64,000 nt of DNA, taken from NCBI RefSeq assembly GCF_021531995.1, contig NZ_JAFBIZ010000001.1, forward strand, positions 1-64,000, in the 5' to 3' direction. Within the stretch, counting starts at the first letter, position 1. The number at the start of each line of letters is the position of its first letter. Positions 21,121-46,816 of the stretch are shown here, in pieces. A program made the translations under genes and the position numbers. The notes under the pieces are model-generated. The model saw only the letters and a list, made by a program, of their open reading frames with translations, was not told the DNA's origin and made no database searches. The DNA comes from Faecalicatena contorta. GTDB taxonomy: Bacteria; Bacillota; Clostridia; Lachnospirales; Lachnospiraceae.

Positions 21121-21150
21121 AACAGGACGCGGCGTAGGCTGCGTCCTGTT
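21121..21150. terminator. Hairpin between convergent rpsT and ilvC
   Basis: AACAGGACGC (21121-21130) pairs perfectly with GCGTCCTGTT (21141-21150). There is no T run on the minus side and only a broken one on the plus side, so its efficiency as an ilvC terminator is uncertain. The word CTGCGTCCTGTT recurs in the hairpin at 24333-24361. Confidence 0.6.
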
Positions 21151-21184
21151 TTCATCTTTCTATAATATTCAATTCAGCCGATAA

Positions 21185-24332: not shown

Positions 24333-24361
24333 AGGACGCAGTCTGTCTAAGACTGCGTCCT
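24333..24361. terminator. Perfect 12-bp hairpin downstream of gpmI
   Basis: AGGACGCAGTCT (24333-24344) pairs with AGACTGCGTCCT (24350-24361) around a 5-base loop. No T run follows on the minus strand, so it may be a weak terminator or an mRNA 3' stabiliser. Its right arm shares CTGCGTCCTGTT with the hairpin after ilvC. Confidence 0.6.
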
Positions 24362-24399
24362 GTTATCTCTTTGATACTATATTCTTTTCACAATATACT

Positions 24400-38488: not shown

Positions 38489-39568
38489 CTATTCTTCCTC
38501 TTTTGCAGCCGAAGCCTTTCTTCCGGAGGTCTTTGCCGGAGCCGGCTTTTCTTCTGTTGTCTCTTCCGATTCTTCTCCGATATGGTAATGGATCCGGATC
38601 TTTTTTTCCAGTTCCTCCATGATCTCCGGATGTTCGGAGAGATAAATCTTTGCATTCTCACGTCCCTGACCGATCTTATCCCCGTTATAGGCAAACCAGG
38701 ATCCACTCTTGCTTACCAGATTACAGTTTACTGCAAGATCCAGAATGTCTCCTTCCTGAGAAATTCCCTTTCCAAACATAATATCAAATTCCGCTTCTTT
38801 AAACGGAGGTGCGATCTTATTCTTGACAACTTTCACGCGAGTTCTGTTTCCAATCATCTCTCCGTTCTGTTTCAGTGTCTCAATCCTTCTGACATCCATA
38901 CGAACAGAAGCATAGAACTTCAGCGCACGTCCGCCGGTCGTTGTCTCCGGATTACCAAACATTACTCCGACTTTTTCACGCAGCTGATTGATAAATATAA
39001 CCACGCAATTGGACTTGCTGATCACCGGGGTAAGCTTACGAAGCGCCTGAGACATCAATCTTGCCTGAAGACCCACATGACTGTCTCCCATGTCGCCTTC
39101 AATCTCCTGCTTTGGCACAAGTGCGGCAACCGAGTCAATAACAATGATATCCATGGCGCCAGATCTTACCATCGTCTCGGTAATCTCCAGAGCCTGATCA
39201 CCACTGTCCGGCTGAGATATATATAATTCATCAATATCTACACCAATATTCTTCGCATAGACTGGATCCAGCGCATGCTCTGCATCAATAAATCCGGCGA
39301 TCCCGCCTCTTTTCTGTACTTCAGCAATCATATGCAGTGCAACCGTTGTCTTACCACTGGATTCCGGTCCGTATATCTCAACAATACGTCCCTTGGGAAC
39401 TCCCCCAAGTCCAAGGGCCAGATCCAGACTCAGAGAACCGGTTGGAATCGTCTCAACTGCAACCTGTGCAGACGGGTCACCCAGACGCATGACGGTTCCC
39501 TTTCCATAGTCCTTCTCTAATTTTGCAATCGCAGCATCAAGTGCGCGTTTTTTATTCTCATTTACCAT
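38489..39568 (-). CDS. recA: Recombinase RecA
   Basis: RecA forms filaments on single-stranded DNA for strand exchange and triggers LexA self-cleavage. The frame opens at 39592, inside the SOS box region, but the ATG at 39566-39568 ([13 protein letters not shown]) is spaced 7 bases from GGAGAAGGAG and gives 359 aa. Walker A is GPESSGKTT (about residue 67), Walker B is [12 protein letters not shown] (about 140), and the DNA loop region follows. The tail is acidic and Lys-rich. It has its own promoter with an SOS box. Confidence 0.98.
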
Positions 39569-39592: not shown

Positions 39593-39606
39593 CGAACGAG
39601 TGTTCG
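39593..39606 (-). promoter_or_regulatory. LexA (SOS) box of recA
   Basis: CGAAC-ACTC-GTTCG on the minus strand, a perfect 5-bp inverted repeat that fits the Gram-positive SOS consensus CGAAC-N4-GTTCG. It lies just downstream of the -10, where LexA would block initiation or escape. lexA itself is not in the window. Confidence 0.9.
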
Positions 39607-39619
39607 TTTTCTGATTAAT

Positions 39620-39648
39620 ATAGTATTATACTTCTCTCTAAATGTCAA
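39620..39648 (-). promoter_or_regulatory. Sigma-A promoter of recA
   Basis: Minus strand: TTGACA (39643-39648), a 17-base spacer, TACTAT (39620-39625). A TATAAT also occurs 12 bases after the -35, too close to be used with it. Confidence 0.75.
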
Positions 39649-39679: not shown

Positions 39680-39693
39680 TTACAGATCTGTAA
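39680..39693. promoter_or_regulatory. Perfect 14-bp palindrome upstream of recA
   Basis: TTACAGATCTGTAA lies about 32 bases upstream of the recA -35. It could be a protein-binding site; I cannot name the protein. Confidence 0.4.
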
Positions 39694-39762
39694 GCAGGAA
39701 TACTGCATGACTTCTTATAAGATATCATTAAAATACCACAATTTTCCCATTGCCGTCAACAA

Positions 39763-39811
39763 GGATCGATACAAAAAATATAGAAGCATTCCATATTTTT
39801 CACATCGATCC
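39763..39811 (-). other. 23-bp hairpin between the GH13 gene and recA
   Basis: Two 23-nt arms (39763-39785 and 39789-39811) flank a 3-base loop. In the minus-strand RNA all 23 positions pair, four of them as G-U; in the plus-strand RNA those four would be A-C mismatches. This bias indicates the structure is kept as RNA on the minus strand. It lies 49 bases after the GH13 stop codon. No T run follows, so it is not a standard terminator. Confidence 0.7.
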
Positions 39812-39859
39812 CTGTCCGTATTTTCTGTGTATATTTTAAATGATATTTCTATTCTGTAA

Positions 39860-41545
39860 TTACTTCACACTGAGCACAACCACATCACATGGATATAGCG
39901 TAACCTTCGTCTCTCCAATTTCCAGCTTCCGTTCTGTATTACCAAGAAGCATCTGCTCTGACACAGTCCCAAGTTCCCGCATAAGATCCACCGTCTGCTC
40001 GCGAATTCCGAAATTTGCAAGAACCACAACCTGCGCTGTCTCTGCTCGCCTGGCAAATGCAAATATCTGTTCATCCTTTTCCAGAAATGGAATAAATTCT
40101 CCCTGTGCAAATACCTCCCGCCACTTCGGATCTTTTTTCAGGCGAATCAGTTTTCGATAATAATTCAGCACAGAATTCGGATTCTTTTCCTGAGATGCCA
40201 CATTGATCTCCCGATAATTTTCATTTACTTTAATCCAGGGGATTCCATCCGTGAACCCTGCAGATGCACTGTCATCCCACTGCATTGGAGTTCTCGCATT
40301 ATCACGGCTGTGGCGGCAACACGCCTCCAATGCCTCCTCCTTGCTGCAGCCGGCATCCAGTGCTGCCTGATACTGATGGTAAGTATCAATATCATCATAT
40401 TCGTTCACATCACTCATCCGGCAGTTAACCATTCCAATCTCCTGTCCCTGGTAGATAAATGGAATTCCTCGAAGGAGCAGACTTATGGTTCCAAGCATCT
40501 TTGCTCCGTCCGGTGTCTTTGCATGTTCTGGAAGATAACGGCTAGCCCCTCTTGGTTCATCATGATTTTCAATGATGTTGGCCAGGAACGCCTTTCCCTG
40601 ACACCTCAGCTGAGAATCTATGATCGTCTTTTTCCACTCCGTGAATTCAGCCTCTTTCGCATCATACCACCCTTTTTCACCTTCTGTCAGAATATGCGGC
40701 GCAAAATCAAACATCGTAGAAAAATACCCATCATCTCCCACAAACTGCTCAAGCTCGGATTCTTTCATATTAAAGACTTCTCCTACCGTAAATGCATCGT
40801 ACTTTGCAAATGTCTCTTGCTTTAACTCGCCCAGAAACTCCCCAATCCCCTCTGCCTCTTCTACCATATGCACACAGGATCTCAATCCGTCCGGTCCATC
40901 TGGTTCACAATCCGGAAATGTAAGATTTTTCTTAATATTAATGATCGCGTCAATACGAAATCCGGCAATCCCTTTATCCAGCCACCAGTTTACCATCTCA
41001 AAAAGTTCCTGCCGGACTCTGGGATTTTCCCAGTTCAGATCCGGCTGCTCTTTTGCAAACATATGCAGGTAATACTTGTCCGTTCCCGGCACCTGTTCCC
41101 ATGCACTTCCTCCGAAATAAGACCGGTAATTGTTCGGCGGATTCCCGTTTTTCCCTTTCACAAAATAAAAGTAATCTGCATATTCCCCTTCCGGATCCTT
41201 AAGCGCCTTCTGAAACCATTCATGTCTGTCCGAACAGTGATTGATTACCAGATCCATCACGATCTGAATATGATGCTCTTTCGCCTTTTCCAACAGTTCA
41301 TCGAATTCTTCCATGGTCCCGAATTCTTCTGCAATCTTATAATAATCAGATATATCATATCCCTGATCTACAAAAGGAGACTGATAGACAGGAGACAGCC
41401 ACAGCAGGTCAATTCCCAGACTTTCCAGGTAATCCAGTTTTTCAATAATCCCCCGCAGGTCTCCGATTCCATCACCATTGCTGTCTTTAAAACTCTTGGG
41501 ATAGATCTGATATGCAACTTTATCATGCCACCATTTTGTCTTCAT
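39860..41545 (-). CDS. GH13 alpha-glucosidase (oligo-1,6-glucosidase type)
   Basis: A 561-aa cytoplasmic glycoside hydrolase of family 13, subfamily near oligo-1,6-glucosidase (MalL) and trehalose-6-phosphate hydrolase. The catalytic residues fit that family's numbering: Asp199 in GFRIDAI, Glu256 in VGEVFN and Asp329 in IENHDEPR. No signal peptide is present, so it acts on imported oligosaccharides. Residue 200, Val in 1,6-specific and Thr in 1,4-specific enzymes, is Ala here, so the bond preference is unclear. GGAGG precedes the ATG. It follows an AraC regulator gene and has an activator-type promoter. Confidence 0.9.
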   Translation of the reverse strand: MKTKWWHDKVAYQIYPKSFKDSNGDGIGDLRGIIEKLDYLESLGIDLLWLSPVYQSPFVDQGYDISDYYKIAEEFGTMEEFDELLEKAKEHHIQIVMDLVINHCSDRHEWFQKALKDPEGEYADYFYFVKGKNGNPPNNYRSYFGGSAWEQVPGTDKYYLHMFAKEQPDLNWENPRVRQELFEMVNWWLDKGIAGFRIDAIINIKKNLTFPDCEPDGPDGLRSCVHMVEEAEGIGEFLGELKQETFAKYDAFTVGEVFNMKESELEQFVGDDGYFSTMFDFAPHILTEGEKGWYDAKEAEFTEWKKTIIDSQLRCQGKAFLANIIENHDEPRGASRYLPEHAKTPDGAKMLGTISLLLRGIPFIYQGQEIGMVNCRMSDVNEYDDIDTYHQYQAALDAGCSKEEALEACCRHSRDNARTPMQWDDSASAGFTDGIPWIKVNENYREINVASQEKNPNSVLNYYRKLIRLKKDPKWREVFAQGEFIPFLEKDEQIFAFARRAETAQVVVLANFGIREQTVDLMRELGTVSEQMLLGNTERKLEIGETKVTLYPCDVVVLSVK

Positions 41546-46765: not shown

Positions 46766-46816
46766 AAAACAGGAATTGTTTCCCTGTCAGTCGTACAGGG
46801 AAACAATTCCTGTTTT
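46766..46816 (-). terminator. Perfect 22-bp terminator after the second carboxypeptidase gene
   Basis: Arms 46766-46787 and 46795-46816 are exact reverse complements around a 7-base loop. On the minus strand the stem is followed by CCTTTCTCTG after its own T-rich end. It could end transcription in either direction. Confidence 0.88.

Follow-up and report, generated by a model that had tools for sequence, protein, structure and literature searches.

What does a long RNA hairpin do in the gap between a GH13 gene and recA, where its last bases run into a predicted recA promoter? The locus lies in the window, by which we mean the whole 64,000-nucleotide stretch of Faecalicatena contorta DNA that was analyzed; its genome (G000:C111), from the family Lachnospiraceae, comprises 3.25 Mb in 320 contigs. 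On the minus strand, the genes follow in the order of a D-alanyl-D-alanine carboxypeptidase gene, a tRNA-editing-domain gene, an araC-family gene, and the GH13 gene, after which come the gap and recA (Table 1). The initial annotation described the gap as 290 bases long and as containing the hairpin, a 14-bp palindrome, and the recA promoter. The length is about 290 nt if the ATG at 39568 is the recA start, and the palindrome is present and perfect. The single promoter must be replaced by two promoter-like sites: P2, which is touched by the hairpin, and P1, which lies beside the LexA box.

Table 1. Features of the GH13–recA gap and its flanking genes (window coordinates)
Feature	Coordinates	Strand	Basis
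GH13 gene (alpha-amylase family, Pfam PF00128); its transcript would bear the hairpin	39860–41545	minus	
RNA hairpin, 28 bp	39758–39816	minus	folding
23-bp core of the hairpin	39763–39811	minus	folding and shuffles
TTGTT directly 3' of the 23-bp core; weak final stem pairs and/or T-rich terminator tail	39758–39762	minus	
P2, predicted distal recA promoter: TTGACG, 18 nt, TATTTT, with TG before the -10 element	39730–39759	minus	
Perfect 14-bp palindrome TTACAGATCTGTAA, between P2 and P1	39680–39693		
P1, predicted proximal recA promoter: TTGACA, 17 nt, TACTAT	39620–39648	minus	
CGAACACTCGTTCG, assigned as the LexA (SOS) box by its motif; kept across the family	39593–39606	minus	
recA, from an ATG preceded by a ribosome-binding site; 39592 is the start of the longest ORF	38489–39568	minus	

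Structure of the hairpin and its contact with the predicted promoter P2

RNA folding of the 49-nt core on the minus strand produced an uninterrupted 23-bp stem closed by a 3-nt loop, with an energy of -23.4 kcal/mol. The 23-bp hairpin originally reported is thus exact, and none of 200 dinucleotide shuffles folded as well (z -8.1). The plus strand of the same segment reached -15.0 kcal/mol and contained mismatches. When the flanks are included, the stem in fact extends to 28 bp without a mismatch, again with a 3-nt loop, and the energies become -32.4 kcal/mol for the minus strand and -18.5 kcal/mol for the opposite strand. This stem consists of 6 G-C, 16 A-U, and 6 G-U pairs, and begins 43 nt past the stop codon of GH13. 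Its last five pairs are G-U, A-U, C-G, A-U, and G-U, then G-C and G-C, and its final two bases are also the first two bases of the P2 -35 box (TTGACG). The four imperfections of the core are G-U pairs on the minus strand and A-C mismatches on the plus strand, as had been stated. Taken alone, this pattern constitutes modest evidence for a minus-strand RNA, because four out of four on one strand is expected in 1 of 8 cases by chance when the changes are free to hit either arm.

A chance occurrence of P2 is improbable, because other genera carry comparable words at comparable spacings ahead of recA. Of 397 family genomes, 20 matched a strict P2 pattern, and recA stands at 5 of these 20 loci (the window, ET55, G324, G232, and G263). 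Since the reversed control of the pattern gave 9 matches, most of the 15 matches away from recA are not far above background. The extended -10 element of P2 (TGTGnTATTTT, with TTGACG) recurs in a subset of the Lachnospiraceae.

A conserved dyad, TACAGATCTGTA (39681–39692), forms the core of the palindrome TTACAGATCTGTAA and sits between both recA promoters. It is kept as TACAnnTCTGTA in ET55, G001, G002, and G232. Thirteen P2-bearing genomes were examined for the dyad; it is exact in five, the window included, and one mismatch off in G263 and G324, for a total of seven. TACAnnTCTGTA may be a better lead than the hairpin itself.

Recurrence of the hairpin in related genomes

A search for GH13 homologues covered 397 genomes. 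Close relatives are few: three genomes are available for the genus of the window, and a single one for each of the genera of ET55, G324, and G232. The hairpin is absent in both relatives from the same genus, G001 and G002. In G002, a tRNA-editing-domain gene occupies the place of GH13, the genome has no GH13 match at E <= 1e-200, and its sequence aligns with the gap from the -35 box onward, immediately past the hairpin. In G001, another gene precedes recA, and its GH13 gene is located some 0.32 Mb away. GH13 is the gene immediately before recA in the window, ET55, G232, and G307, and probably also in G164, in which two contigs meet at this point. In G037, a maa-like gene stands between the two. 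The GH13 contig of G164 (end of L204) and its recA contig (start of L205) have exactly 55 bases in common, P2 among them, before diverging; this is probably an assembly-graph overlap, or else strain variation. In G236 (L177), a TAA codon lies within the matched GH13 frame, which may indicate a pseudogene or an error in the assembly.

Hairpins at the same place were found after GH13 in Faecalicatena contorta ET55 (-26.3 in the sense versus -14.2 in the antisense strand) and after a maa-like gene in G324 (-26.4 versus -15.8), where the stop codon of the upstream gene falls within the hairpin. Both end in TGTTGACG, resembling the TTGTTGACG of the window, and both stems likewise take in the first two bases of the -35 box. 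They are shorter or interrupted compared with that of the window.

The region before P2 was surveyed in 14 P2-bearing genomes, of which 12 were folded under 13 entries, G324 was added, and G156 was read but not folded. This set was chosen from the retrieved loci by visual inspection and pattern matching and is not a random sample; G192 may be another member. Three of the 14 have a hairpin abutting the -35 box, one (G164) has a hairpin spanning it, one (G037) has a small abutting hairpin, and three have a T-tailed terminator. No hairpin was recognized before P2 in the remaining six (G001, G002, G307, G263, the genome of L093, and G156). The T-tailed cases include G232, which has the second-best GH13 match among the 397 genomes, that of the window aside, and carries GH13 next to recA; there, GH13 and P2 are separated by an ordinary terminator composed of a G-C-rich hairpin and TTTTT. 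The other two cases are G146 and G353, whose T-tailed hairpins likewise precede P2. In G307, GH13 is adjacent to recA with its frame running into P2. An inverted repeat, ACCGCCGGG ... CCGGCGGT, was observed in G037 and G353 (L134 near 3817 and L122 near 868). It starts in the P2 -35 box and closes downstream in the recA leader, placing the whole promoter inside a potential hairpin.

The pairing was compared over the ten outermost pairs in three genomes only (the window, ET55, and G324), with arms placed by hand and leaning towards pairing; MAFFT had put the longer hairpin of the window out of register. G164, with its hairpin spanning the -35 box and its 55-base contig overlap, was left out. 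All ten positions pair in each genome in the sense RNA, and eight of ten in the antisense. Crossing the arms of the window with those of ET55 or G324 leaves 8/10 pairs, and crossing ET55 with G324 leaves 10/10. At two positions, the window and the other two genomes differ by compensatory changes (G-C to C-G and U-A to G-C); the remaining variable pairs change only between A-U and G-U or between G-C and G-U. The comparison is supportive of kept minus-strand RNA pairing and is not proof of it; the three hairpins could be homologous or could have arisen separately. The proposed selection on a minus-strand RNA thus gains support from hairpins at the same place in ET55 and G324, their greater stability in the sense strand, and the compensatory and G-U-keeping changes. 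Judged by the refuting condition given with that proposal, the outcome is mixed: compensatory changes turned up, but G307 has both genes adjacent without a hairpin.

The tail of the stem compared with other gene ends

The hairpin was initially said to have no T run after it. Strictly this holds, but T accounts for four of the five bases that follow the 23-bp stem (TTGTT), and the final two T also open the -35 box. The window hairpin ends in TTGTTGACG, and a U tract of about 7–9 nt is not found after the stem. For the TTNTTT motif in the non-template strand, the window offers a partial match, TTGTTG, which is one T short, and the tails of ET55 and G324 have no match. We scored the tails by T count with decreasing weight. 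The window scores 2.55 past the 23-bp core, 1.72 past the last G-C pair, and 0.02 past the full 28-bp stem, where the tail becomes GACGG without a T run. For comparison, the terminators of G232 and G146 score 3.83 and 4.95, respectively, and the tails in ET55 and G324 are weaker than that of the window.

Gene-end hairpins were surveyed in 182,117 sampled bases of the same genome (the window and 20 further stretches). Among 84 gene ends with room, 29 have a hairpin of -10 kcal/mol or better. An earlier table of 88 gene ends had omitted the GH13–recA hairpin, since a spurious plus-strand ORF blocked the gap; longer ORFs were used in the survey of 29 hairpins. The tail of the window hairpin is poor, yet it is within the range of the gene-end hairpins of this genome, because 10 of the 29, this one included, score 1.72 or less; nine of the other 28 have poorer T tails. 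The survey region also contains an ordinary terminator in contrast to the GH13–recA hairpin, a perfect inverted repeat of 22 bp that carries a T run and lies at the end of a carboxypeptidase gene (46766–46816). The gene-end hairpins near about 21150–21184 and 24333–24399 share common arms close to GGACGCAG ... CTGCGTCC, and perhaps represent one terminator copied.

Proposed termination at the promoter edge and competing explanations

We propose, with a probability of roughly 0.6, that the hairpin is a suboptimal, factor-aided intrinsic terminator of the araC–GH13 unit, with terminal bases that also belong to the -35 box. The position, structure, strand preference, and recurrence across genera are established, and termination itself is the proposal. 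A polymerase leaving GH13 would make the 28-bp hairpin and slow over TTGTTGAC; RNA release at the edge of the recA promoter would be partial and probably aided by NusA/NusG, and the read-through RNA would enter the recA leader. The dismissal of a usual terminator in the initial annotation was premature: T-tailed terminators occupy the homologous place in G232, G146, and G353, and poorer tails occur elsewhere in this genome, which make a terminator the likelier reading. Insulation of recA is not required, since no hairpin was recognized before P2 in 6 of the 14 P2-bearing genomes, including G307.

The hairpin resembles intrinsic (Rho-independent) terminators in being a strong sense-strand structure shortly past a stop codon, where relatives have ordinary ones, and differs from them in its A-U-rich stem (6/28 G-C pairs) and in having TTGTT for a T run. 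Many B. subtilis terminators are described as requiring NusA and/or NusG, and the NusG-dependent ones as having A-U and G-U pairs at the stem base, an interrupted U tract, and a TTNTTT pause motif (PMC8060035). The window hairpin comes near this class in its terminal A-U and G-U pairs, among which one C-G lies, in an interrupted but very short U tract, and in a sequence, TTGTTG, near the motif. The NusG of this genome contains WYVVRNTRG, which lines up with WYVVRNTPG in a NusG chain of solved structure; it has the tyrosine and the NT residues of a pausing NusG, which contact the non-template strand, at the spacing given in PMC8060035. In contrast to this class, the window hairpin is strong, not weak, one T of the motif is missing, and ET55 and G324 are without the motif; its factor dependence is a prediction. 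The weak terminal pairs, TTGTTG, and the NusG WYVVRNT together favor a suboptimal, factor-aided terminator. According to PMC8745188, the S. aureus sbrB terminator has natural mispairings and reads through to yield an RNA antisense to lexA. The window hairpin is similar in being a possibly leaky terminator adjoining an SOS gene, whereas its read-through RNA would be sense to recA, unlike the sbrB RNA as described there (PMC8745188).

The 28 uninterrupted pairs are long for a terminator, no T run follows the full stem, and the sense-strand pairing is kept, all of which would also fit a 3' stabilizer that shields the RNA from exonucleases or an RNase III processing site. A stem of 28 uninterrupted pairs is a good RNase III substrate. 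A GH13–recA read-through RNA would then be cut in, or trimmed to, the long stem, fixing the GH13 3' end and separating the two mRNAs without termination. We consider this unlikely, as G232, G146, and G353 carry ordinary terminators at this position, and length is not the conserved property, given the shorter or interrupted stems of ET55 and G324. Two bases belong to both the stem and the -35 box in three genera, the G164 hairpin extends across the whole box, and the weak tails imply read-through. These features could point to a control element, in which incomplete termination ties transcription of the sugar enzyme to the level of recA or the hairpin over the -35 box alters P2. Such a role is very improbable in view of an upstream gene that varies between genera (GH13 or maa-like) and of the many relatives without the hairpin. 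A fused terminator–promoter, with the terminator end serving as the P2 -35 bases and leaky, NusA/NusG-sensitive termination setting the transcription that enters or blocks recA apart from SOS, would similarly be a long shot.

A neutral or chance hairpin without function would agree with the six of 14 P2-bearing genomes in which none was recognized, but is highly unlikely for a fold far outside the shuffles that recurs at one place. The least probable reading is a DNA-level inverted repeat, either an operator or the remnant of a small mobile element. The near-perfect repeat with its tiny loop would suit it, but the genome holds one match only, the arm sequences vary between genera, and the asymmetries preserve RNA pairing on one strand; a plasmid collection yielded no match to the hairpin. 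Part of a small RNA, as also suggested originally, is unsupported, as no Rfam family reached its gathering score in the window, and a permissive Rfam search returned only sub-threshold matches to eukaryotic or viral families.

The hairpin is most likely ordinary in kind and unusually tightly packed against the promoter of the next gene. If the suboptimal terminator is the right reading, the sharing of bases with the -35 box would explain the missing T run, and the 3' end of a gene can press against the next promoter in this manner. It would also be a case missed by terminator finders that demand a T run. Furthermore, the predicted distal recA promoter, conserved among some Lachnospiraceae, would bear on the control of recA outside the SOS response.
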